Below are positions 4,729 through 17,146 of a stretch of 20,961 nucleotides of DNA, in pieces. Under the pieces are notes generated by a model. The model did no database searches, was not told where the DNA came from, and saw only the letters and a list, made by a program, of their open reading frames with translations. Made by a program: the position numbers and the translations under genes. Every line of letters starts with the position of its first letter. Within the stretch, counting starts at the first letter, position 1. Source of the DNA: a virus; the IMG/VR virus record IMGVR_UViG_3300044631_001122, positions 1-20,961 of that record. One strand, 5' to 3'.

Positions 4729-5898
4729 GTGTTTGAAAGTTCGGTTTTATTCAAAGACAACTACTCGGCAACCGATAAAGTCGTAGTCAATCAAGGGGGT
4801 TCGAGTTCGGGCAAGACTTACTCCATTCTTCAGGTGCTATTTTTGAGAGCCATAGAGCATCCGAGAAGCGTTACGACTATCGTGGGGGAAACTATCCCCA
4901 ACCTTAAAAGTGGCGCGCTTAGAGATGCCCAAACAATTGTGGCGAATTCGCCTATATTAACCAAGTTGATAGCAAGCTACAACGCTACCGACCGAGTGTA
5001 CACCTTATACAACGGTTCGGTATTGGAGTTTAAATCTTACGAAACCAGCCAATCGGCTAAGTCAGGTAAGAGGCAGTTCCTATTCGTGAACGAAGCCAAC
5101 GGCATAAGCTATGAGATTTGGAACGAACTCTATCTACGCACAACCATTCAGGCTTTTATTGACTACAACCCCAATGCAGAATTTTGGGTGCATGAAAAGA
5201 TAATCGGCAAGGGTGGGGTGCGGTTGTTTATCTCCGACCATAGGCACAACCCTTATGTATTACCAGCCATTCGGGAGAAGATAGAAGGACTTAAGGACAT
5301 AGACTTAGAATTGTGGAAGGTGTATGCAAGAGGGCGTACCGGGCGCATCGAAGGTCTTGTATTCCGTAATTGGGATATTTGCGATTCGATTGACAAGGTA
5401 CGCTGCAAGCTGGTTGCACTTGGAATGGACTGGGGTTTTACGAATGATCCGACTGCTCTTTGTGCGGTTTGGAAAGATGGCGAGCATTTGTATATTGAGG
5501 AGTTACTCTACGAACGAGGCTTAACAAACCAAGACATCGGGGCGAGATTGAAGGATATGGCTATCGGAAGGACAATGGAGATAATAGCAGATTCAGCAGA
5601 GCCTAAGTCTATTGAGGAAGTGCATAGAATGGGGTTCAATATACACGGAGCAAACAAGGGTAAAGACTCAATCCAAAATTCAATAGATATTCTAAAGCGT
5701 TACAAACTGCACGTTTTGCGTGGTTCGGTCAATCTTATAAAGGAACTCAACAGCTACAAGTGGAAGCAGGATAAGAACGGCAACCCATTAAACGAGCCAG
5801 TTGATTTTCAAAACCACGCCATTGATGCGCTTAGATATGTGGCACTCAATAAATTAAAGGTGGCTAACTCAGGAAAATATTTTATATTGCAAGCGTAA
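4729..5898 (+). CDS. terL: Large terminase subunit (389 aa)
   Basis: This is the ATPase-nuclease motor that packages phage DNA into the prohead. The Walker A motif is GGSSSGKT (23-30). The Walker B-like strand is FLFVNEAN (117-124), with Asn in the usual first Asp position and the catalytic Glu present. The C-terminal RNase H-like nuclease shows its acidic residues in GMDWGFTNDP (Asp234), IIADSAEP (Asp288) and NHAIDALRY (Asp366). The length is near the family norm of about 400-450. The start is GTG at 4729; no in-frame ATG precedes Walker A. It is a Terminase_3-type protein, and the small subunit lies immediately upstream. Confidence 0.95.
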   Translation: MFESSVLFKDNYSATDKVVVNQGGSSSGKTYSILQVLFLRAIEHPRSVTTIVGETIPNLKSGALRDAQTIVANSPILTKLIASYNATDRVYTLYNGSVLEFKSYETSQSAKSGKRQFLFVNEANGISYEIWNELYLRTTIQAFIDYNPNAEFWVHEKIIGKGGVRLFISDHRHNPYVLPAIREKIEGLKDIDLELWKVYARGRTGRIEGLVFRNWDICDSIDKVRCKLVALGMDWGFTNDPTALCAVWKDGEHLYIEELLYERGLTNQDIGARLKDMAIGRTMEIIADSAEPKSIEEVHRMGFNIHGANKGKDSIQNSIDILKRYKLHVLRGSVNLIKELNSYKWKQDKNGNPLNEPVDFQNHAIDALRYVALNKLKVANSGKYFILQA

Positions 5899-5910
5899 AA
5901 CGACAACGAG

Positions 5911-6273
5911 ATGAATACAGAAACACGAATGACTGACGAGAATATGCTCAAGCATATTGAAAGCCACAAGGGCAATTTTAACTTTACTATCGCTCACCGT
6001 GTGGCATCGCTGATGTACTACAAAGATGCTCCGACAATGGTTTACCTGACTAACATGATTTGCATCGGTTACAACCTTATTCCTAATGACAAAGAGTATG
6101 CGCAAATTGGGTCACTTACGCCTGAAAAAATGAAGCTGATTATTGAAGAACAAAAAGGAGATATTGACTTTACTCAACCAAATCAATGTTTAAAAATTGA
6201 TAAAGGATACAACGGAGTATCGGGCCTTAAAGCAGCGTTGTGCTATGCCTACAACCTAAAGCCGAACCAATGA
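5911..6273 (+). CDS. Hypothetical protein with two tandem ~50-residue repeats (120 aa)
   Basis: Residues 12-60 and 74-120 are two diverged copies of one unit. Copy A has MLKHIESHKGNFNF and ends YNLIPND; copy B has MKLIIEEQKGDIDF and ends YNLKPNQ. Both also have a hydrophobic helix before the YNL(I/K)PN end (MICIGYNL, ALCYAYNL). The linker (KEYAQIGSLTPE) is short. No known domain is recognised. It follows the large terminase by 12 bases with the leader AACGACAACGAG and overlaps the next gene by 4 bases (ATGA). An internal duplication of this size suggests a pseudo-symmetric binding protein, but the function is unknown. Confidence 0.65.
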   Translation: MNTETRMTDENMLKHIESHKGNFNFTIAHRVASLMYYKDAPTMVYLTNMICIGYNLIPNDKEYAQIGSLTPEKMKLIIEEQKGDIDFTQPNQCLKIDKGYNGVSGLKAALCYAYNLKPNQ

Positions 6274-6932
6274 AAGCGCAGACCTTTATTTTCGTACACG
6301 ACCAGCAGATAGTCATTGACTACATTCAGGCTGGCAAGTTTGACCAATTACCCGACGTGAGATATGTGTTTTTAGGACAGCGACCTATTGACCGATTAGA
6401 CCAGTTTATCGGAGAAAAGAAAGTGATTGTGGCACGAAACCTACCCGATAATATCGAACACTTACCCAACTTAGTTGCTTGGACTGGGTGGTATGCTGTG
6501 GCACGGAACGGGCTGATAACAGCCGATGTGGTTAATCTATTCGAGTACGACATCAATCTAACTGACTGGAAACAGCCGATGAAGTCAACAGCTTACTTTT
6601 GGCATCCGTACGCTGATAATACTTGGTGGAACTACAACAACATAAAGCCTGAATTACGAAGATTGGTAGTAATGGTCAGCAATGACCCTTTGCCAATGAC
6701 CTCGAATTACACTTTGTTCGTTGACAAGATTCATCCGTTTGTAAAGAACTTAATGGAAAGCGACTTAGATGCAGAGCATCCGCAGGCTGGTCACATCGTT
6801 GAGAGGTATTGCAGCGCATACTTTCAATTCAAGGTTACGGCTGCTGGTGGACTTAACCACCTTTACGCTGATTCCCACGGAACGCAAGGCAGAGGGGATA
6901 GATACCAAGACATTAAATACAAACTGCTATGA
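6270..6932 (+). CDS. Putative glycosyltransferase-like protein (220 aa)
   Basis: The N-terminus looks like an alpha/beta sugar-nucleotide-type fold (KAQTFIFVHDQQIV, then VRYVFLGQRP). Residues 175-185 read HIVERYCSAYF, resembling the H-x2-ER-x3-Y motif of DUF4422-type glycosyltransferases, and FEYDINL (91-97) could hold an acidic metal-binding site. Family membership is tentative. ATG 6270 (MKAQTFIF) overlaps the previous stop by 4 bases and is better than the upstream frame start at 6240. The next gene, also glycosyltransferase-like, overlaps by 4 bases, so the pair probably acts in one pathway. Confidence 0.5.
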   Translation: MKAQTFIFVHDQQIVIDYIQAGKFDQLPDVRYVFLGQRPIDRLDQFIGEKKVIVARNLPDNIEHLPNLVAWTGWYAVARNGLITADVVNLFEYDINLTDWKQPMKSTAYFWHPYADNTWWNYNNIKPELRRLVVMVSNDPLPMTSNYTLFVDKIHPFVKNLMESDLDAEHPQAGHIVERYCSAYFQFKVTAAGGLNHLYADSHGTQGRGDRYQDIKYKLL

Positions 6933-7522
6933 TTAAGGTAATAAACTACGGAAGCGGTAAATATAAAGAGTTGGCAGCAACCCAATTCACAAACGGACTG
7001 CCTTTAAAAACTTACAGCAACGAATCGCCAAACGGAAGGGGTGACAACTATTGGAGGTGGAAGCCTGAAATACTCTTAAACACCATGACTAAATACAAGG
7101 GTGATTTCATCCTTTACATTGATGCTGGTGACTACCACACCGAGGACTTTTGGAAGTGGCTAACTGCCTACGTTGTCGTTTCGGATAACCTATTTGTGAG
7201 CCGTGGGTATTTACACAGAGAGTGGACTAAAGCCGACTGCTTAGAAGCAATGGGGATGCTGCCTTGTATTGAGCGAATAGACCATCAATTAGAAGCTGGG
7301 TTAATCGGTCTAAGGGCAAACGATGAAAACATCGCACTTGTAACCGAGTGGAGAGAATGGATGCAAGACGAGCATTTAGTGAACGATGCGCCAAGCCAAA
7401 TCCCAAACCATCCCGATTTCAAAGAGCATAGGCACGACCAATCTATTTTAACAAACTTAGTGCTTAGAGATAAATACCCGATTCAAAGAGTTAATCATGT
7501 AATATGGAACGCAAGACATTAG
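6929..7522 (+). CDS. Putative GT-A-type glycosyltransferase (197 aa)
   Basis: The block RGDNYWRWKPEIL (37-49) followed by GDFILYIDAGDYH (58-70) resembles GT-A-type enzymes of phage and capsule loci, in which the DAGD acidic motif ends the strand that holds metal and nucleotide-sugar. The later EHRHDQSILTNLVLRDKY (166-183) carries the HxxDQSI pattern also seen in such transferases. No membrane segment is seen. The length is short but complete for this type. It is coupled at both ends (4-base overlap upstream, 19-base overlap downstream). Donor and acceptor are unknown; modification of a virion protein or host glycan is inferred from position. Confidence 0.65.
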   Translation: MIKVINYGSGKYKELAATQFTNGLPLKTYSNESPNGRGDNYWRWKPEILLNTMTKYKGDFILYIDAGDYHTEDFWKWLTAYVVVSDNLFVSRGYLHREWTKADCLEAMGMLPCIERIDHQLEAGLIGLRANDENIALVTEWREWMQDEHLVNDAPSQIPNHPDFKEHRHDQSILTNLVLRDKYPIQRVNHVIWNARH

Positions 7523-8010
7523 AGAAATTAGACTACTCACATCCGTGGGTAACAGCAAAGGAACACATTTTGCAAGTGTATGACGAAGCCAAAAGGCTCA
7601 AAGGTCACGCCTTAGACATCGGCTGCTTTCAAGGTCACTCTGCGTTAGCTATGGGTTTGGCTGGTATGGAAGTATCGTTAGTGGATATTCATATTGATTA
7701 CTTAGACAAAGTGACCGACTTGCTGGAAGGTCACGGCTGCAAGGTAAATACCGCAGCAATGTGCGAGAGCGCAAAGGTGTTAAATTGGATTGAGCCAGTT
7801 GAATTGATAATGCACGATGCAGAACACGGTCAATCTATTGTGCCTGAATTACTTTTATTTTGGGATAAGGTAAAGTCAGGCGGTACGTTTATCATCCACG
7901 ACACCGACCAAATAGATTTAGCTGGCTTTATCAAAGCATTAGGCTACCCCGAAAATAAAACCACAGCAGACGAGCGTGGAAGGTGCTTGTCTATATTTTA
8001 CAAGCCATGA
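7504..8010 (+). CDS. Class I SAM-dependent methyltransferase (168 aa)
   Basis: The Rossmann-type motifs are clear. Motif I is ALDIGCFQGHSALAMG (36-51). An acidic residue ends strand 2 in VSLVDIH (57-63). A motif IV-like VELIMHDAEH lies at 99-108, and GGTFIIHDTD (126-135) forms a later strand. This layout matches Methyltransf_24-type enzymes, which often act on sugars or small molecules. No DPPY-type DNA-methylase motif is present, so DNA methylation is unlikely. Its place at the end of the glycosyltransferase cassette suggests it caps or modifies a sugar (inference). The stop overlaps the tail chaperone start in an ATGA. Confidence 0.75.
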   Translation: MERKTLEKLDYSHPWVTAKEHILQVYDEAKRLKGHALDIGCFQGHSALAMGLAGMEVSLVDIHIDYLDKVTDLLEGHGCKVNTAAMCESAKVLNWIEPVELIMHDAEHGQSIVPELLLFWDKVKSGGTFIIHDTDQIDLAGFIKALGYPENKTTADERGRCLSIFYKP

Positions 8011-8585
8011 AATTCACATCCCTAACTATTGACCAATTCCAGCGCATCGCAGCCATTGAGGCTACTGGTGAAGAGCAAATCAAGAAGGTGGCTATCGTTG
8101 CCGTTCTCAAAGGGATATCCTTAGACGAAGCGAAAAGCCTACCTATGACCGAGGTAGGTAAAGCGTACAAGGCAATCGAAGACGAGATGAAAGACTTGCC
8201 GAAGTTGCGATATAAGGAAACCTTCACGCTGAATAAAAAGAAGTACAAGCTGTCTTTATTTACCGATACGCTCACGGCTGGTCAGCTTATTGAAATGATG
8301 TCTTATGAAATGGCTGACGAGTACCAAGTGATTCAAAACCTACATAAAATAATGGCTACGCTTGCGAGGGAAAGGAAGTGGTTTAAGACCTTACCCTATG
8401 ATGGGGCGAAGCACGGAGAGCGTGCCGAGGAGTTCAAGCAACTCACGATGAAAGAAGTGTGGGGTGCGGTATCTTTTTTCTTATTAGCCTCCGAAGGCTT
8501 TATAACGATTATGAAGGATTATTCGGAGGCGGTACTGAAGACGATGGACAAGGAGTTAACCTCGCTGCGAAATACGGCTGGATAG
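8007..8585 (+). CDS. Tail assembly chaperone, short (G-like) product (192 aa)
   Basis: This gene sits where tail assembly chaperones are found, upstream of the tape measure gene, and has the typical behaviour of a pair made by frameshifting. The product begins MKFTSLTIDQFQRIAAIE, is helical with a KETFTLNKKKYKLSLF beta segment, and terminates normally at 8585. A TTTTTTC slippery site in the correct phase lies near its end (codons Phe-Phe at 8475-8480), allowing part of the ribosomes to enter the -1 frame. Sequence alone does not name a family, but the frameshift, length and position make the chaperone call strong. ATG 8007 overlaps the methyltransferase stop (ATGA) and is better than the upstream frame start. 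Confidence 0.75.
   Translation: MKFTSLTIDQFQRIAAIEATGEEQIKKVAIVAVLKGISLDEAKSLPMTEVGKAYKAIEDEMKDLPKLRYKETFTLNKKKYKLSLFTDTLTAGQLIEMMSYEMADEYQVIQNLHKIMATLARERKWFKTLPYDGAKHGERAEEFKQLTMKEVWGAVSFFLLASEGFITIMKDYSEAVLKTMDKELTSLRNTAG
8474..8530 (+). promoter_or_regulatory. Programmed -1 ribosomal frameshift signal
   Basis: The heptamer T_TTT_TTC at 8474-8480 is in the exact X_XXY_YYZ phase relative to the upstream frame. Six bases after it begins a perfect 9-bp stem, GCCTCCGAA (8487-8495) with TTCGGAGGC (8522-8530), enclosing a 26-base loop. An alternative 5-bp hairpin, AGCCT-CCGA-AGGCT (8486-8499), shares the same 5' arm, so the two structures are mutually exclusive. Slippery site, spacing, stem and downstream -1 frame all agree. 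Confidence 0.85.
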
Positions 8586-8719
8586 TCGTTGTGGATTCTT
8601 TGGCTATGGGTGACGTTCTCAAATGGGATGCCATCTTTAATCTAAACGCACGGCAGTTTTTAAACTACGTTCAGTATTACGCAGACAAGAAAGAAGTCGA
8701 AGCGATGAAAAGCCAATAA
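8480..8719 (+). CDS. Frameshift (T-like) extension of the tail assembly chaperone
   Basis: The -1 frame is open from upstream of the slip site to the TAA at 8717-8719. After slippage at TTTTTTC (8474-8480) the ribosome reads LISLRRLYNDYEG and continues for 79 codons, giving a fused product of about 237 residues (158 from the first frame plus 79). The extension is acidic to mixed and ends YADKKEVEAMKSQ. It has no convincing start of its own: the in-frame ATG at 8459 lies inside the first gene and precedes the slip site. In phage lambda the equivalent G-T fusion recruits tape measure and tail tube proteins, and the same role is inferred here. Confidence 0.75.
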   Translation, partial: LISLRRLYNDYEGLFGGGTEDDGQGVNLAAKYGWIVVVDSLAMGDVLKWDAIFNLNARQFLNYVQYYADKKEVEAMKSQ

Positions 8720-8744: not shown

Positions 8745-9317
8745 ATGGACAAGCTTTTAGAAATCTCATCTATTCAGGGAACGGACTTTGTCGGTCTTGA
8801 CGTGGCGCAGCTTACTGGCGTTAAAAGGGTGCTGGGTGCGTTTGCAAAGCAGGTAGTTTTAGATTCTCAAAAGAACCTTGATAAAGGCGGTCGGTTTGGT
8901 CAGTACAACGCTTCCTTTAATCTTCGGCAGTCTATTGACCCATCGCAAGTAAGGGAAGAAGGTAATGGATACACCGTAGAAATATCAATGGCTGACTATT
9001 GGAAGTTTCTGAACGAGGGTGTACTTGGTAAAAAGTCAGGCAACAAAGCGCAAGGCAGTCCATTTCAATACGGCAAGAATGCACCTATCCCGACAAGGGC
9101 AGGAATAGAAAAGTGGATTCAAGCAAAGCCAATAGTTCCCGAAGATGGTGGCTCACGCAAAGGCTTGGCGTATGTAATTCGCAGAAGCATAATAAATACT
9201 GGTACGCCTCGAACCTTATTCTTTGACAAGGCACTACCCGATTCACTTATAAAAGTATTAACCGAAGATGTAGCCGAGGCGTTCGGCAAGTCCATTTCTA
9301 TCTCTATAAAAGTATGA
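8745..9317 (+). CDS. HK97 gp10-like head-tail/tail completion protein (190 aa)
   Basis: The overall pattern fits the HK97-gp10-like or tail completion proteins. The N-terminal helix is followed by DYWKFLNEGVLGKKSGNK (about residues 84-101), then a PFQYGKNAPIPTRAGIEKW block and a C-terminal RKGLAYVIRRSIINTGT-TLFFDKAL region. The D(Y)WxFLxxG core and the terminal P-R-x-F/L-FF segment recur in that family. It lies after the tail chaperone rather than with the portal and capsid genes, which is unusual for gp10-like proteins. ATG 8745 follows a TACATTTAC element and no Shine-Dalgarno sequence. Family assignment is moderately sure. Confidence 0.6.
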   Translation: MDKLLEISSIQGTDFVGLDVAQLTGVKRVLGAFAKQVVLDSQKNLDKGGRFGQYNASFNLRQSIDPSQVREEGNGYTVEISMADYWKFLNEGVLGKKSGNKAQGSPFQYGKNAPIPTRAGIEKWIQAKPIVPEDGGSRKGLAYVIRRSIINTGTPRTLFFDKALPDSLIKVLTEDVAEAFGKSISISIKV

Positions 9318-10474
9318 GCGTATCTATTCTATCACAGCCCAGCGTTACACTAAGCGCAGACAACGCTTTGTTTGTTGTTTCGGGCAGTAACTTTGCAAGC
9401 GGAAACTACCGATATGTCGCAGACGTAAGCGGAACGACTTTATTGAGCCGATTGAAGTGCGACAAGCTGCCAAACAACGAAGGCTTTTTCAACGTGGCAA
9501 AGGTAATCGAAACGCTTGTGCCTATCACAAAGCCAGCCGTTACGTTCTTTCAGGACCCGTTGATAGCTTCGACTTATCAGGTAGGCTTTAGAGAGGAGTA
9601 CGGAACGCCACCAGTAGTAGCAAGCGGACAAACCATAGCAAGCGGTATCGTGTTTCAAGGGTATAAACGCCAATGGGAAGATTTCGTTGCGAGTGGCTAT
9701 TATGCCTTAGCCTCGGCAGCCAAGATACTATCAAAGCAACCTACCAAAAGAAAGATAAGATTAGGAGAGAATGACTTTGCCAGCGTGTTGTTTTACATTC
9801 TTAGTGGCTCAACAAGCTATAAAGTAACCATTACTGCACCGACTCGCACCTTTTCGGTATCGGGAACAATAGCAAGCGGTGCGCTGGATGGAATGTTTAA
9901 TACTGGTCTTGCTGGTATTTACGCTTTAACAAGCGGTCAAACATCCGATGGTCAGGTAGGAAGCTATTTGTTATCGGGCATAACCAGTTACACGGTTACA
10001 ATTGAGTATGTGCATTCGGGAGATACGCAATATTACAGCGAAGGCAGAACGTCAGAAAACCACACAATAGAATACGAGGTCGAAAGCTGCGAGCGGTTTG
10101 CACCACAGCGGTTGTTCTTTAAGAACTCTTTAGGTGGCTTTGATGGCTATACCTTTACGATGAAAAACAAAAAGGTCGGCACAATGTCAAAGCAGACCTT
10201 CGGAAAGAATCAAAACATCTATGGAACGAAGGTAGCGGAAACGATTTATTCAGGCGAGTTTGAGGAAACAATGACCTTAAATAGCGACTGGTTAATAGAT
10301 GCTAACTGGATGTCGGAGTTGATTTACTCACCGCAGGTCTATCTGCAAATCGGTTCGGAGTTGGTAGAGGCAATCGTTAACACCTCAACCTTTGCCTTTC
10401 ATACAAGACCGCAGGATAAGTTGCAGCAGCTTCAAGTGGATGTCAAGATAGCCTATAAAAATAGTGTGATATGA
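9314..10474 (+). CDS. Probable phage tail/virion structural protein (386 aa)
   Basis: This predicted beta-rich protein starts MSVSILSQPSVTLSADNALF and contains many serine, threonine and glycine turns, including repeated (I/V)ASG tripeptides (PPVVASGQTIASGIVF, GTIASGALDG). Proteins of this kind sit between the chaperone and the large tail protein in Bacteroidota phages, but I cannot assign a defined domain. A C-terminal part (KSNQNIYGTKV-like and DWLIDANWMSELIYSP) is more globular. The start overlaps the previous stop by 4 bases and the end overlaps the next gene by 4. It could form part of the tail tip or baseplate, given its place before the 742-residue protein and the tape measure gene. 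Confidence 0.55.
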   Translation: MSVSILSQPSVTLSADNALFVVSGSNFASGNYRYVADVSGTTLLSRLKCDKLPNNEGFFNVAKVIETLVPITKPAVTFFQDPLIASTYQVGFREEYGTPPVVASGQTIASGIVFQGYKRQWEDFVASGYYALASAAKILSKQPTKRKIRLGENDFASVLFYILSGSTSYKVTITAPTRTFSVSGTIASGALDGMFNTGLAGIYALTSGQTSDGQVGSYLLSGITSYTVTIEYVHSGDTQYYSEGRTSENHTIEYEVESCERFAPQRLFFKNSLGGFDGYTFTMKNKKVGTMSKQTFGKNQNIYGTKVAETIYSGEFEETMTLNSDWLIDANWMSELIYSPQVYLQIGSELVEAIVNTSTFAFHTRPQDKLQQLQVDVKIAYKNSVI

Positions 10475-12699
10475 GTACGCTGATTATTTATCCGCTTGAC
10501 GATAGCAACGTAGAAGTTCCGTATGTTTTAGATTGCGATGAGGTAGATATTAGCCTGACCTTTTCGGTTCAGGACATTCAAGATGTAACCAAAAGGAGAG
10601 GTTCGTTCAGCAAGACCATCACGCTTGCTGGTACTGGTGCAAACAACCAAGCCTTCGGTCACGCCTATAACATTCAATCTTTTGTCGGTGGCTTTACGCC
10701 TAATAAACGAATTAGGTGTACGCTATGGAACGAGGGCATCCAAACCTTTACTGGCACTTTGCAGCTTCTTAGCATTACTAAGATGAACGAGCAGATTAAC
10801 TACGAGGTCGGAATATACTCGGAGGAAATAGCTTTCTTTAGGCAGATAAACGAAACGAAGCTGGCAGCGACCGCAGGAGTAAGTGGGTTTAATCATACAT
10901 TGACAGCATCAGTAGCAAGTGGAACGTGGGTAGCAACAGCAGGAAGTGGCTACGTTTACGGCTTCTTAGATGGCTACGGATATACTGACGTTGTGCCTTC
11001 TGCTTTAAGTTTCTTTGGCATATCATTGCTCATTCCTTACATTCAGCTTGTGCCTTCGTTTTATGTCAAGCAAATGGTTGACTTAATCTTTGCTCAAAGC
11101 GGATATAGATACGAGTCTGCGTTTTTTAACACAGCTAACTTTAAAAAGCTGGTTATCCCTTACGCTGGCGGTACGATGTTGCAAAACGATTTGAGTGGCG
11201 AAAATAGCATAATGGAAGGCAGCGAGTTAACTGGCGGTGAGGCTGGTGCAGCTAACTGGAATTATTTAGGCGACTTTTATTATAGCGGTGTATTCCCATT
11301 TGATACCGTTATTACCGACCCCCAAGGGTATTGGGATGATACTACTTATGAATTTACAAACGTAGCATTTTACAGCACTTGGACTGTAAACTATGAATTT
11401 ACTTTAAAAAACTTAGCAAATAGAGTTGTTCAAATAGGCTTTGCGATTTGCGATTCCGTTACTGGACTGCCTATAAACGAAACTCTGCAAGATACGGTGG
11501 TTGATTTTATACAACCATTACAAACAAAAAAGTTTCAGTTTCAAGGCGTTGTAAGATTAAACCCAAATCAGGTTGTCGATTTAAGGGCGTTTTTCTTTAG
11601 CATTCCTAACGACTACCCAATACAAATAGAGGACAAGTCTAAAATCACAATGATTTGCACGGAGAATGCAGGTGCAAACTTAGCTGCTGATATGGTTAAG
11701 GCATTGCCTCCTGACATTACGCAAGCAGATTTATTGAGTGACTTGCAGAAGATGTTTAATCTTTACTTTTATCAATCACCGACCGACCCTGACTTAATCT
11801 ACATTGAGCCGTTTAATACGTTCTATTCAAGCGGTAGCGTAAACTGGACTGAAAAGATAGACAACACCGACAAGCACTTATTGCAGATGGGTGACCCACA
11901 AGCACGAAAGCAAATCACGTTTAAATACAAAGATTCAGGCGATGCTTTGGGCAAGTTGTACAATGATACCTTTTCGGAAGGGTATGGCTCACGGATATTT
12001 GAAACTGATAACTATTACGCAAAGGGCGAGCAAGTGGTGGAAACCAAATGCTCAACCGTTATCCCTGCCTCTTTTCGTTCGGGATTGCCTATCGGCAGGA
12101 CTTTAGATATAGACTCAAACAACCAGCCAAAGGCAAGGGCGACTGGCTACCGCATTGCTCAATTTAATTATGTATCTATTCCATCATCGGCTGCGTGGTC
12201 AATGCTTTTGGACTATACACCAACCTTTGCCCAATTTACCTCATTGCCTTTAATTGCTCACATAGACAACCCTTACGCACCGACTTTTGACCTTGCGTTT
12301 GGTATGCCTAAGAATTTGTACTTTAAAGCCATTGATGGTGCTGGATTTAAGGATTACGATAATAGAAACCTATTCAACACCTATTGGCGTAATTATCTAA
12401 TAGAAACCACCAGCAAAGAATCTTTGCAAATAGAGATACCAGTAATACTTGACCCAGTTGACATCTACCAGCTTGACTTTAGGAAGCCTATCTATATTGA
12501 AGGCATCCTCTTTAGGTTGCTTGAAGTGAGAGATTACACCATTGGAGGCTCTCAAAAATGCACAGCAATCCTGCGCAGAATCCTTAATCTTGCACAGCCA
12601 GCGACTGGCGCAGTAGAGGTTAACACCTTCTTTGACTCGTCAACTTTAGTGCTTGGCGAAATGAAACCACAAATAGTAACACCTAACAACATTCAGTAA
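10471..12699 (+). CDS. Large virion structural protein, probable tail tip/baseplate (742 aa)
   Basis: The N-terminus contains VDISLTFSVQDIQDVTKRRG followed by SFSKTITLAGTGANNQAFG, a layout recurring in large structural proteins of Bacteroidota phages. The middle holds a hydrophobic strand-rich segment, and the C-terminal part contains IYIEGILFRLLEVRDYTIGG, typical of a tail-associated beta domain. No peptidase or lysozyme motif is visible, so enzymatic wall digestion cannot be claimed. It lies directly upstream of the tape measure gene (one-base overlap), the opposite side from where tail-tip genes usually follow it. Its large size and beta content suggest a distal tail or baseplate component (inference). 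Confidence 0.6.
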   Translation: MSTLIIYPLDDSNVEVPYVLDCDEVDISLTFSVQDIQDVTKRRGSFSKTITLAGTGANNQAFGHAYNIQSFVGGFTPNKRIRCTLWNEGIQTFTGTLQLLSITKMNEQINYEVGIYSEEIAFFRQINETKLAATAGVSGFNHTLTASVASGTWVATAGSGYVYGFLDGYGYTDVVPSALSFFGISLLIPYIQLVPSFYVKQMVDLIFAQSGYRYESAFFNTANFKKLVIPYAGGTMLQNDLSGENSIMEGSELTGGEAGAANWNYLGDFYYSGVFPFDTVITDPQGYWDDTTYEFTNVAFYSTWTVNYEFTLKNLANRVVQIGFAICDSVTGLPINETLQDTVVDFIQPLQTKKFQFQGVVRLNPNQVVDLRAFFFSIPNDYPIQIEDKSKITMICTENAGANLAADMVKALPPDITQADLLSDLQKMFNLYFYQSPTDPDLIYIEPFNTFYSSGSVNWTEKIDNTDKHLLQMGDPQARKQITFKYKDSGDALGKLYNDTFSEGYGSRIFETDNYYAKGEQVVETKCSTVIPASFRSGLPIGRTLDIDSNNQPKARATGYRIAQFNYVSIPSSAAWSMLLDYTPTFAQFTSLPLIAHIDNPYAPTFDLAFGMPKNLYFKAIDGAGFKDYDNRNLFNTYWRNYLIETTSKESLQIEIPVILDPVDIYQLDFRKPIYIEGILFRLLEVRDYTIGGSQKCTAILRRILNLAQPATGAVEVNTFFDSSTLVLGEMKPQIVTPNNIQ

Positions 12700-14375
12700 T
12701 GCCAGACGTAAATAAGGAAATAGCACTAAAGGTCACGACCGATGTAGGTCAAACCAACACAGCGTTAAAAAGTGCAGAGGAAAGGTTAAGCGAAGCCAAG
12801 AAAGCCATGTTGGATTTGGCATTAGCTGGCAAGCAAGGCTCAAAGGAGTTTAGGGATTTAGCTGTTGAGGCTGGTGCGTTAAAAGGCAAAATAGAATCCG
12901 TTGAGCAGACCGTTGATGGATTAGGCAAGAGCGCAAACAAGATTGAGGTATTTAGCGGTGCAGTTCAGGGCATAGCTGCTGGCTTTGCTATCGCACAAGG
13001 TACGGCTGCTTTATTTGCCGAAGGTAACGAGGAACTGCAAGAATCACTTGTTAAGGTACAAGCGTCTTTGGCTTTATTACAAGGCACGGAGCAAGCGGTT
13101 CAGTTATTAAGAAAAGAAAGCGCAGCAGGGCAGGCTTTATTGACCGCAAGAACCGCAGCTTATAATTTAGTGGTAGGCGCATCAACTGGCGCACTAAAGT
13201 TGTTCAGAATTGCTTTAGCTGCTACTGGAATAGGCGCAGCCGTAGTTGCGATTGGTGCATTGGTTGCTAATTGGGATAAACTAACCAAGGCGGTAACTGA
13301 CTTTATTAGCGGTTCTCCAATGCTTACAAAAGTTATTGGGTATATTTCGGATGGCTTTACTAAATTAGGCAGGGCGATTGGCGTAATACCAAGCGAATCA
13401 GAAGCAGCGACAAAGCAGATGATTGCTGATTTAGAAAAGCAACAAAAGCTATTAGAAGCAGCAGGCGCAAACACGGTTGCTATCGAAAGGCGTTTGGCTC
13501 AATTACGCATTCAATTAGCCAAAGAAACTGGCGAAGGGTTAGAGGAAGCGCAAGAGGAACTTACCATTTTTGAAGCGCAGCAATTTAAAATAAGAGCAGA
13601 CAAAGAAGCCGAAGCGTTAAAAATACGAAAAGCACAATATGCAGCGTATTTAGAGCGTGTAAGGATGTCGCAATTAGAGATAGGCACAGCCGAGGCTAAA
13701 GGATTCCAGCAAATTAAATCTAATGCCGAAGCTGGTTTAGAATTAGATAGGCAAACGCTGGATGCAAGATTTAAATTGCAACAAGAGGCGAGAGAAAAAG
13801 AAAGAGAAAAGCAAGCAGAATACAACGCCAATAAACTTGCTGACCAGCAAGCTGTTGAGTTAGGTATTATAAACATGGCAAAGGGTACATTTCAAACCAT
13901 TGCCGATGTATCTGCGTTTTTTGCTGGCAAAGACGAAGCAAGGCAGCGCAAGGCTTTTGAGATTCAAAAAGCAGCAGGCATAGCAAATACCTTAATCGAT
14001 ACCTATGCAGCAGCGCAAGCAGCTTTTAAATCAGCATCTCAAATACCAATTATTGGTGCGGTTGCTGGTCCGATTGCAGCAGCTACCGCCATTGCTGCTG
14101 GTCTTGCTCGTGTGGCAGCTATTAGAAACACTACCTTTAGTGCTGGCTCTGCAAGCGCAGCACCACAAGCTGTTAGTTCTCCCACATTCCCACAACCGAG
14201 TCAGCAGCCACCAGCAGCCTTTACCCCTAACGTAGCCAACCCAAATCCAACTAATCAGCCAAACCCACAAGGGGGGCAGAACGGAACGACAAGGGTTATC
14301 GTAGTTGAATCCGATATTAGGAGAGTAACAACAAGGGTTGATGCAGCCGAAAGATTTGCTACCTTTGGGAATTAA
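12699..14375 (+). CDS. Tape measure protein (558 aa)
   Basis: This has the classical composition of a tape measure protein. Long helical, alanine- and lysine-rich stretches with heptad character flank a hydrophobic segment at about residues 168-190 (FRIALAATGIGAAVVAIGAL). A second hydrophobic part lies later (IIGAVAGPIAAATAIAAG), and a proline/asparagine/glutamine-rich tail follows. A central coiled coil is rich in E, K, R and Q (REKEREKQAEYN). Such proteins set tail length; at roughly 1.5 angstrom per residue, 558 residues would give a tail near 80 nm (estimate). It ends just before a strong terminator, closing the tail transcription unit. Confidence 0.85.
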   Translation: MPDVNKEIALKVTTDVGQTNTALKSAEERLSEAKKAMLDLALAGKQGSKEFRDLAVEAGALKGKIESVEQTVDGLGKSANKIEVFSGAVQGIAAGFAIAQGTAALFAEGNEELQESLVKVQASLALLQGTEQAVQLLRKESAAGQALLTARTAAYNLVVGASTGALKLFRIALAATGIGAAVVAIGALVANWDKLTKAVTDFISGSPMLTKVIGYISDGFTKLGRAIGVIPSESEAATKQMIADLEKQQKLLEAAGANTVAIERRLAQLRIQLAKETGEGLEEAQEELTIFEAQQFKIRADKEAEALKIRKAQYAAYLERVRMSQLEIGTAEAKGFQQIKSNAEAGLELDRQTLDARFKLQQEAREKEREKQAEYNANKLADQQAVELGIINMAKGTFQTIADVSAFFAGKDEARQRKAFEIQKAAGIANTLIDTYAAAQAAFKSASQIPIIGAVAGPIAAATAIAAGLARVAAIRNTTFSAGSASAAPQAVSSPTFPQPSQQPPAAFTPNVANPNPTNQPNPQGGQNGTTRVIVVESDIRRVTTRVDAAERFATFGN

Positions 14376-14396
14376 GCGTTTCATAATTTAGGTTTG

Positions 14397-14424
14397 ACCC
14401 CGTGCCGAGAGGTACGGGGTTTTT
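14397..14424 (+). terminator. Strong intrinsic terminator after the tape measure gene
   Basis: A 10-bp stem, ACCCCGTGCC (14397-14406) with GGTACGGGGT (14411-14420, one G-U pair), encloses a GAGA tetraloop of the GNRA type and runs into a T-tract at 14420-14424. It lies in the 80-base gap after the tail module. Confidence 0.85.
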
Positions 14425-14450
14425 GCATACTTAGCCTTTCGGTACATTTT
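14422..14450 (+). promoter_or_regulatory. Candidate promoter for the head module (TTTG-N17-TACATTTT)
   Basis: TTTG at 14422-14425 is followed 17 bases later by TACATTTT (14443-14450), five bases before the ATG at 14456. It starts right after the terminator, which is the expected place for a new transcription unit, and resembles the elements before the genes at 8745, 17230 and 18299. Confidence 0.55.
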
Positions 14451-14455
14451 AAGGC

Positions 14456-15037
14456 ATGGAGTTACCCCTTTATAAACTGACTATTGACGAGGAAAGCGAG
14501 GGCGTTGATTACGTTGCGCTGACCGATATGCCAGCCATCGAAAGAAACTTTCAGGCATTCTCACAAAAGCAAAGGTTCAAAGAATCAGCTAAACGAGTAA
14601 TATCAGGTGCGTTGATGTTAGCCGATGTGCCTATCTATCGGAATGATTCTAAGATGGGCGAGTACATGGTTGTATTCGATAAGGACACCGTGTATAAAAT
14701 CGTGCAGAAGTTCTTTAAGCAGAACGCTACCCAAAATGTAAACGCTTACCACCAAACCCCGATTGATGGCGTGTTTATGTTTGAGAGTTATATCATAGAC
14801 CGAGAGCGTGGTATTAACCCACCGAAAGGGTTTGAGGATGTAACCGATGGCAGTTGGTTCGGAAGCTACAAAGTAGATAACAACGAGGTGTGGGATGCCT
14901 TTGTGACTACTGGTAAATTCAAAGGCTTTTCGGTTGAGGGTATGTTTGGGATGGAGAAAGTAGAAGATGCCATTGAAGTAGAAATGCAACGCCTTGAAAG
15001 AGCCATTGACCTTTTTTGCAAACAATTTAAACTTTAA
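14456..15037 (+). CDS. XkdF-like prohead protease (193 aa)
   Basis: The C-terminal KGFSVEGMFG (156-165) and the preceding DGSWFGSYKVDNNEVWDAF block resemble the XkdF-type serine proteases found next to capsid genes. A candidate catalytic Ser159 lies in FSVEG, and a candidate His99 in NAYHQTPIDGVFMFES. The N-terminal half is a typical alpha/beta core (VDYVALTDMPAIERNF). Such enzymes trim scaffold and capsid proteins during head maturation. Its place immediately before the scaffold-like and major capsid genes supports this role. The ATG follows a terminator and a TACATTTT element; no Shine-Dalgarno sequence is visible. Confidence 0.7.
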   Translation: MELPLYKLTIDEESEGVDYVALTDMPAIERNFQAFSQKQRFKESAKRVISGALMLADVPIYRNDSKMGEYMVVFDKDTVYKIVQKFFKQNATQNVNAYHQTPIDGVFMFESYIIDRERGINPPKGFEDVTDGSWFGSYKVDNNEVWDAFVTTGKFKGFSVEGMFGMEKVEDAIEVEMQRLERAIDLFCKQFKL

Positions 15038-15049
15038 TATTTATAAGCA

Positions 15050-15640
15050 ATGAACATCCTTGAAAAATTGCAGACACTTAGAGCAGCTTTCGAGCAAGCC
15101 TCTTTGAAATTTGCCGACTATATGTTGGGCGAATTGACCGTGCGTATCGAAGGAGAACCAGTAGTAGGTACTGCTGTCACTCTTTTAGATGCCGATGGAA
15201 ACCCCCTCGATGCTACTGGCGAACACGTTATTCCTGAATTGGGAACTATCGTTGTTTCAAACGGAGTAATCGAATCAATCACTCCTATGGTGGTTGAAGC
15301 TGCTGACGAAGCTGCTGCTGCGGTAGCCGTAGAAGAAGTGGCTGCTGTTGTTGAAGAAATCGCACCTGAAGCACCAGCCGAAGTGGTAGCTGCTATTTCA
15401 ACCGAAGTAGTTGGCGAGATTATGGACAAGCTGGATGAAATGGCAAGCGAACTTGTTGAGTTGAAAAAGAAGATGATGGCTGGACAAGAGCGTGAGAAAT
15501 CAATGTTTGCCCTTATCGAAGCACTCGCAGAAGAACCAAGCGTTAAAGCCGAAAAAGTAATGTTTGGTCAGTTCAAAAAAGACGAAATAGGCAACATAAA
15601 CAAAGTTGCATCAATCCTTAAAAACTTAAAAACTAAATAA
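15050..15640 (+). CDS. Scaffold-like capsid assembly protein (196 aa)
   Basis: Position between protease and major capsid genes and composition both suggest a scaffolding role. A short N-terminal helix is followed by a beta-like part (GELTVRIEGEPVVGTAVTLL), then a long stretch of Ala, Val and Glu (about residues 83-122) that includes EAPAEVVAAIS. The C-terminal portion is a coiled-coil-like helix (EIMDKLDEMASELVELKKKM) followed by a basic tail. Scaffold proteins are typically helical and charged in this way. The sequence does not identify a family; a structural head decoration protein is an alternative. Confidence 0.6.
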   Translation: MNILEKLQTLRAAFEQASLKFADYMLGELTVRIEGEPVVGTAVTLLDADGNPLDATGEHVIPELGTIVVSNGVIESITPMVVEAADEAAAAVAVEEVAAVVEEIAPEAPAEVVAAISTEVVGEIMDKLDEMASELVELKKKMMAGQEREKSMFALIEALAEEPSVKAEKVMFGQFKKDEIGNINKVASILKNLKTK

Positions 15641-15642
15641 TC

Positions 15643-16575
15643 ATGGCATACAATTTTGGCAACTTAGCCGTTTACACCGAGCAGCAGTCACTTCCCCTCG
15701 TAGTGAAGTCATTGTTCAGCGCAAAGAGCGCATCTATTTTGACACCAATGACTGGTATCAAATCTTCTAAGTCAGTTAACCTTATGGACACCGATGCGGT
15801 ATTCCAAAGCGGTGACAACTGCGGATTCACTGCATCAGGTACTACTACCTTCAGCAACCGCAGCTTGACCGTTGGTCGCATCAAAGTTAACGAGGCTATC
15901 TGCCCTAAGAAACTTGAAGAATACTGGATGCAGACACAGCTTCCTATCGGCAGCCGTTATACGTCAATTCCTTTCGAGCAGCAGTACGCTGAGCTTAAAG
16001 CTGGTAAGACAGCCGAGCAAATCGAAACTGCAATTTGGCAGGGCGATACCGCTTCAGGTAACACCAACGCAAACACCAACAAGTTTGATGGTTTCATCAA
16101 GTTAATCAACGCTGCTTCAGGTACTACCATTGCTGGTAATACTGGTTCAGTATCAGGCATCACATCTTCAAACGCTTTCGCAGTTATGCAGGGTGTTTAC
16201 AGCGTGATTCCTACAAACATTTTGGACAAAGAAGATTTGCGTATCGTTTGTGGATGGGATACTTTCCGCAAGTTGGTTGCAAACTTGACTAACCTCAACT
16301 TGTTCCATTACAACCCAACCGTTGAGAACGCTGGCGAGATTGTTCTCCCCGGTACTAACGTGGTTGTAGTTGCCTTGAATGGCTTGAACACTACTAACCG
16401 CATCTTCGCTATGCGTTTAAGCAATATGTTCTTCGGAACGGACTTGTTGAACGAAGACGAGCGTTTCGAAATCTTCTTTGCAAAAGAAGCTGACGAGGTG
16501 CGTTACGTTGCCGAGTTCAAAGCTGGTGTTCAGTTCGCCTATGCGACTGAAATCGTAAACTTTATATTAGCCTAA
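15643..16575 (+). CDS. Major capsid protein, HK97-like (310 aa)
   Basis: The size (310 residues) and place directly after protease and scaffold genes fit the major head protein. It begins MAYNFGNLAVYTEQQSLPLV, includes conserved-looking CGFTASGTTTFSNR and SRYTSIPFEQQYAELK segments, and ends with an acidic-to-beta segment (DEVRYVAEFKAGVQFAY) typical of HK97-fold P-domains. The HK97 fold itself is inferred from context, not from a unique motif. The codons here use more C and T third positions (such as AAC, TTC, GGT) than the neighbouring genes, as expected for a highly expressed gene. It ends 6 bases before a GC-rich hairpin. Confidence 0.8.
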   Translation: MAYNFGNLAVYTEQQSLPLVVKSLFSAKSASILTPMTGIKSSKSVNLMDTDAVFQSGDNCGFTASGTTTFSNRSLTVGRIKVNEAICPKKLEEYWMQTQLPIGSRYTSIPFEQQYAELKAGKTAEQIETAIWQGDTASGNTNANTNKFDGFIKLINAASGTTIAGNTGSVSGITSSNAFAVMQGVYSVIPTNILDKEDLRIVCGWDTFRKLVANLTNLNLFHYNPTVENAGEIVLPGTNVVVVALNGLNTTNRIFAMRLSNMFFGTDLLNEDERFEIFFAKEADEVRYVAEFKAGVQFAYATEIVNFILA

Positions 16576-16581
16576 TTCAAT

Positions 16582-16604
16582 GGGGAGGGTAACACCTCCC
16601 CTTT
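16582..16604 (+). terminator. Hairpin after the major capsid gene, possible weak terminator
   Basis: A 7-bp GC-rich stem, GGGGAGG (16582-16588) with CCTCCCC (16595-16601), has a 6-base loop and only TTT after it. It lies 6 bases after the capsid stop. It may be an attenuating terminator or an mRNA-stabilising 3' structure for the highly expressed capsid message; the short T-run makes full termination unlikely. Confidence 0.45.
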
Positions 16605-16627
16605 ACTAACCTCTAAATAATAAAAAT

Positions 16628-17146
16628 ATGAGTTGTGCATTAACCGCAGGTTACACATTAGGATGCCGAGATTCAGTCGGTGGCATCAAAGAGGTTCGTT
16701 TCATTGAATTCGCTAACGTTACTGGTATCACCGCTACAAGTGGGTTTGTCGTTTCAGGCATTACCACAAGTGGTTCTACTAAGTTTTGGAAGTACGATTT
16801 AACCAAGCAGACCTCGCAATTTACCGAAACCATCACTCCTTCTATGGAGAATGGAACGATTTTCTACCAACAAGACCTGCAAATTGTCTTGAATAAAATG
16901 ACTGCTGCCCTTCGCAATCAGTTGCGTTTGTTAGGTCAAAATAGACTTATGGCAATCGTTACTGACCGCAATGGCGTGTACTGGTTGTTGGGTTCTTTGA
17001 ACGGCTTAGAACTAAGCGCAGGAACTGGTCAGAGTGGTACTGCCTTCGGTGACCGTAACGGCTTTGACGTTACCTTTACTGGTATGGAAGAACAGCCAAT
17101 GCGTGAGGTGCAATCAAGCATCATCGCTGCATTGACTAACGCATAG
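16628..17146 (+). CDS. Probable major tail tube protein (172 aa)
   Basis: This small beta-rich protein starts MSCALTAGYTLGCRDSVGG and ends VQSSIIAALTNA. The GCRDSVGGIKEVRFIEF start and the ENGTIFYQQDLQIVL middle recall small tube proteins of Bacteroidota phages, and the size fits. It lies after the capsid gene, behind a short non-coding gap with the A-rich leader AAATAATAAAAAT, which supports strong expression. A strong terminator follows. A head-completion or decoration protein is the main alternative, since the other tail genes lie upstream. Confidence 0.55.
   Translation: MSCALTAGYTLGCRDSVGGIKEVRFIEFANVTGITATSGFVVSGITTSGSTKFWKYDLTKQTSQFTETITPSMENGTIFYQQDLQIVLNKMTAALRNQLRLLGQNRLMAIVTDRNGVYWLLGSLNGLELSAGTGQSGTAFGDRNGFDVTFTGMEEQPMREVQSSIIAALTNA

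Follow-up and report, generated by a model that had tools for sequence, protein, structure and literature searches.

The segment at 8474-8530 of the window, by which we mean the whole 20,961-base record of an uncultured virus of bacteria, very probably works as a canonical −1 programmed ribosomal frameshift signal, which seems to have arisen from an ancestral run of nine Ts (T9). A −1 frameshift yielding a fusion of a candidate tail assembly chaperone with a C-terminal extension is well supported by sequence comparison, and the signal in the window is most likely functional; we infer that the ribosome makes the shift, and likewise its rate and the role in tail assembly. The distinctive feature is the contrast with relatives that carry a T9 run, and not the second hairpin singled out in the earlier note. 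The features are listed in Table 1.

Table 1. Features of the recoding site and its surroundings, in window coordinates.
Feature	Position	Strand	Remark
Zero-frame gene, gpG-like candidate tail assembly chaperone	8007..8585	+	192 aa; ATG 8007, stop 8583-8585
Slippery heptamer T_TTT_TTC	8474..8480	+	zero-frame codons TCT TTT TTC; T6C where other lineages have T8-T10
−1-frame extension, gpT-like domain of the putative 237-aa fusion	8480..8719	+	conserved in divergent phages from the junction on
Spacer, 6 nt	8481..8486	+	
5-bp 'competing' hairpin	8486..8499 (8486-8490 with 8495-8499)	+	probably not functional
5' arm of 9-bp stem	8487..8495	+	paired in 15/15 close relatives; one A-U to G-U change
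Apical helix above 9-bp stem	8498-8505 with 8509-8516	+	8 bp including one G-U; stacked on the stem
3' arm of 9-bp stem	8522..8530	+	in the −1 frame also codes Phe-Gly-Gly of the conserved LFGG motif
Tape-measure protein gene	12699..14375	+	phrog_1506, E = 1.3e-9

Read from the ATG at 8007, the zero frame crosses the site as TCT TTT TTC TTA, and the heptamer conforms to the X_XXY_YYZ pattern in zero-frame phase. The earlier note had placed the heptamer at this position in exact zero-frame phase and had followed the −1 frame for 79 codons to 8719, giving a fusion of about 237 residues; all of these coordinates are correct. The −1 frame has 79 sense codons followed by a stop at 8717-8719, and the fusion is 237 aa long. 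Compared with the other in-frame X_XXY_YYZ heptamers in the genes of the window (21 in all), this one has the longest −1 open reading frame (79 codons; the next has 40) and the strongest downstream fold (runner-up, −13.6). The heptanucleotide TTTTTTC is under-represented in the window, with 4 matches on both strands where 10.9 would be expected; its only occurrence on the coding (+) strand is the chaperone site. A peptide across the Phe-Phe-Leu junction, formerly suggested as a marker of the fusion, is not diagnostic, because the zero frame also encodes Phe-Phe-Leu; the products part one residue later, as FFLLASE in the zero frame and FFLISLR in the −1 frame.

In the mechanism that we propose, the majority of ribosomes would continue to 8585 and produce the 192-aa chaperone. 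A minority would be held up by the stable hairpin (8487-8530) while tRNA-Phe occupies UUU in the P site and UUC in the A site; the tRNAs would then slip back by one base on U_UUU_UUC and pair again there, and the −1 frame would be read to 8719. By analogy with lambda gpG/gpGT, the C-terminal domain of this 237-aa product would serve to bring in the tail-tube protein.

The tail-chaperone role is one that we infer from the two-product anatomy and from synteny. The window and three relatives (G001, G002, and G009) each have a phrog_1506 tape-measure match on the same strand, downstream of the gene; the exception is G003, where the match is at the opposite end of the contig. In lambda the gene order is G, GT, H, whereas three genes (8745-9317, 9314-10474, and 10471-12699) separate the chaperone gene from the tape-measure gene in the window. 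As in the window, lambda G/GT is located upstream of the tape-measure gene on the same strand, and makes a zero-frame chaperone plus a rarer, C-terminally extended fusion by a −1 shift near the 3' end of the gene (Levin 1993, Xu 2004, 2013, as cited in PMC5009743). Unlike lambda G/GT, the window signal consists of U_UUU_UUC plus a strong 3' hairpin, and there is no detectable similarity in sequence or to a solved structure. The zero-frame protein had no Pfam match and no informative PHROG match (only the unnamed phrog_32199, in 11 of 26 relatives), no PDB entry matched its fold at E <= 0.001, and in BFVD a 'tail assembly chaperone protein' was matched only at E = 0.1. An AlphaFold2 model of residues 1-158 was confident (pLDDT 87.5), and its top fold matches were uncharacterised phage proteins, a Nonlabens one among them. 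A weak fold match to Flavobacterium phage 6H was rejected, as the gene there has no comparable −1 fusion. Thus the term 'Lambda-type' used in the earlier note fits the strategy, but membership of the lambda G/GT family is not supported by Pfam, PHROG, or PDB.

Some further features of the neighbourhood were recorded. The gene order at 12699-17146 is unusual: a protease-like gene (14456-15037), a capsid-like gene (15643-16575), and a further virion gene come after the tape-measure gene rather than ahead of the tail genes. By reading, three ORFs at 6240-8010, which follow the terminase gene (4729-5898) and precede the chaperone gene, resemble glycan- or methyltransferase-type enzymes, and an ORF at 1286-1819 resembles the C-terminal (origin-binding) domain of DnaA.

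Downstream of the heptamer, GCCTCCGAA (8487-8495) is perfectly complementary to TTCGGAGGC (8522-8530), so the 9-bp stem previously noticed six bases after the heptamer holds in both pairing and spacing. The 52 nt 3' of the heptamer, a window picked to stop near the end of the stem, fold at −21.7 kcal/mol (z = −5.4), a value as low in none of 200 shuffles; for an 80-nt window, z was −3.2. Among 52-nt windows taken from the record, a fold this strong occurs in just 0.24%. Of 20,000 dinucleotide shuffles made from the sequence downstream, 9 gave a perfect stem of 9 bp or longer at a spacing of 5-9 nt. By fold energy against shuffles, structure at the 6-nt spacing therefore exceeds chance. The minimum-energy fold includes the 8-bp apical helix, which the earlier note lacked. 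In that note a 5-bp hairpin sharing the 5' arm was thought to compete with the stem and tune the shift rate. Its pairs exist on paper, but at −5.5 versus −21.7 kcal/mol it is about 16 kcal/mol weaker than the main fold, with an equilibrium probability of about 0, and two of the 11 distinct sequences, L018 and L027, cannot form one of its pairs. We rejected it as a tuner.

Fourteen contigs resemble the window, with 94-98% identity in the gene and 92-99% in the extension, and together with it form what we call the window clade (15 sequences, 11 distinct in the hairpin comparison). TTTTTTC is kept in 15/15, and the Ser codon ahead of the T run alternates between TCT and AGT with its final T always kept. 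All nine stem pairs are likewise kept in 15/15, the sole change being A-U to G-U in L027. The apical helix is less conserved (93% of cells paired), with mismatches in several close relatives.

Because this region codes in two frames, conservation of the stem is weaker evidence than it appears, and within the window clade it is inseparable from the double-coding constraint. Stem sites were not significantly slower than other doubly coding overlap sites (1/18 versus 14/87 vary; Fisher p = 0.46). Little variation exists in the stem across the window clade, and no compensatory change was found; with no pair changed on both sides, covariation is uninformative as proof of the stem. Since the 3' arm codes a conserved −1-frame motif, the pairing could partly be a by-product of coding. 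These points favour an alternative in which the hairpin is incidental, that is, U_UUU_UUC alone shifts enough and the stem merely reflects two overlapping frames, one of them coding LFGG; the T8-T10 lineages described below also manage without a hairpin. However, such a perfect stem at this spacing is rare in shuffled sequence, as given above, and it occurs in just those sequences whose T run is short. In addition, the relative L106 codes LFGGG with an identical TTCGGAGG but without the matching 5' arm (z = −0.4), which means that the LFGG protein motif itself does not force the stem. We regard an incidental hairpin as rather unlikely, and favour a stem that contributes to the ribosomal shift.

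Divergent relatives with 18-45% identity share the chaperone part plus a −1-frame domain that starts directly at the junction. The motif of this domain, approximately Y..LF...GW...FLN, is conserved from the junction at 23-42% identity, also in phages whose zero frames have different ends. The conserved Phe-Phe junction and the −1 domain, found in about 16 divergent lineages, make it very likely, on comparative grounds, that recoding is real. The extension might instead be a separate protein made by internal initiation, or a decayed or unused frame. A GTG is present in the −1 frame at 8459, and the annotation of Nonlabens phage P12024S lists the two parts as distinct hypothetical proteins. Against this, the earliest ATG of the extension is at residue 43, within the conserved domain; in every lineage the −1 frame is conserved from the junction onward, a pattern accounted for only by a fused product; and conservation of the T run at synonymous positions would serve no role. 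Two separate proteins are thus extremely improbable, and the fusion remains our reading of the site.

Wherever a sampled lineage other than the window clade covers the site, its Phe-Phe junction is TTT TTT within an uninterrupted T run. Sixteen representative divergent lineages had T9 (12/16), T10 (3/16), or T8 (1/16), and the runs occur in five codon registers, for example GTT TTT TTT TAC and GCT TTT TTT TTG. Although 28% of the Phe codons in T-run loci are TTC, the junction is always TTT TTT. At the 52 distinct loci of these lineages, 52 of the 54 runs of at least eight Ts are located at the junction site. The relatives L030-L113 have T9 (sometimes T8 or T10) at the chaperone junction across about 15 divergent metagenomic lineages. 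No significant downstream structure was found in T-run lineages (most z values between −1 and +1, the lowest about −2.4), and the 9-bp stem is absent from every homologue outside the window clade. The earlier note had proposed conservation of both heptamer and stem among homologues as a check: homologues do retain the heptamer, as T_TTT_TTY, but only the window clade has the stem.

A cultured example is Nonlabens phage P12024S (JQ823122), in which the segment 23136-23830 (L114:5785-6479) covers P12024S_38 and P12024S_39. A T9 run (L114:6227) with a −1-frame extension links the two, which from their sequences are very likely one recoded gene. Like the window, P12024S has a homologous gene pair, a Phe-Phe junction, and a −1-frame extension; unlike it, P12024S has T9 instead of T6C plus hairpin, is very divergent on a long branch, and is annotated as encoding two unrelated hypothetical proteins. 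It is the more divergent family members, not the window protein itself, that lead to Nonlabens phages. Among isolates, the window protein gave only weak, chance-like matches to Streptomyces phages (E 0.07-0.3), and no relative of its extension was found. Two scans of genome contigs gave no prophage relatives as a route to the host. The hosts of these aquatic phages are probably Bacteroidota.

In the lineages outside the window clade it is run length, not codon register, that is conserved. For a purely ribosomal heptamer, seven Ts in a single register would be enough, so a length kept across registers points to RNA-polymerase slippage. Runs of nine As or Ts are sites at which the bacterial polymerase slips efficiently, and Thermus dnaX uses such slippage (PMC5009743). 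Judged by their runs, the T9 lineages may make the fusion in this way; tandem ribosomal slippage on a T9 run would yield an identical protein.

The same process might operate in the window clade itself, where an extra U in the T6 run would be followed by normal reading into the extension. The T9 runs of the relatives have the length for efficient slippage (PMC5009743), and one added U yields a protein identical to the product of a −1 ribosomal shift. However, the window clade has no uninterrupted A/T run of about 8-9 or more: in 15/15 sequences a C breaks the run after just six Ts (T6C), whereas the homopolymers of transcriptional realignment are usually at least 8 long (PMC3711429). The strong structure lies downstream, untranscribed while the polymerase occupies the run. 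A nascent-RNA hairpin that stimulates polymerase slippage sits 5' of the run (PMC5009743); the hairpin of the window is 3' of the slip site, which fits a ribosomal mechanism. Polymerase slippage in the window clade is therefore highly unlikely, and a ribosomal shift is preferred there.

In a maximum-likelihood tree, the window clade was sister to L050, which has T9 (support 99/99), and both were placed among T8-T10 lineages. T6C plus hairpin is restricted to the window clade (15 sequences) among the sampled lineages. The site of the window, TTTTTTCTT, differs from T9 by a single synonymous TTT to TTC change. The simplest account of these sequences is a change from T9 to T6C, a direction that relies on parsimony in a tree whose branches are long. 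An ancestral T9 run would have been broken by a T-to-C substitution in the window clade, and the hairpin would have evolved to aid slippage on the remaining U_UUU_UUC. We propose tentatively, at somewhat less than even confidence, that polymerase slippage on T9 is the normal device of this aquatic-phage chaperone family, and that the window clade has swapped it for ribosomal frameshifting at a hairpin with 6-nt spacing, yielding the same protein. No report of T9-based tail-chaperone fusions was found in the literature searched, a search whose cover leaves out most subscription journals.

The dnaX gene provides a parallel. The E. coli gene uses a ribosomal −1 shift, and that of Thermus thermophilus depends on slippage of RNA polymerase on a run of 9 Ts (PMC5009743; Larsen 2000). 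As in the chaperone family, homologous genes reach equivalent products through either a heptamer plus hairpin or a T9 run. The shifted product of dnaX is shorter, whereas that of the chaperone family is longer and fused, and the phage T9 mechanism is the one suggested by run length.

Tail-chaperone frameshifting is widespread and is commonly presented as a ribosomal device. Annotation overlooks such fusions, the halves being listed as separate hypothetical genes even in the cultured P12024S. If our proposal is true, the window clade represents a natural swap of the level at which a viral gene is recoded, much as dnaX differs between E. coli and Thermus. The natural variants, bare T9 versus T6C plus hairpin, which appear to make the same fusion, could show how a recoded ratio is conserved while the mechanism changes.
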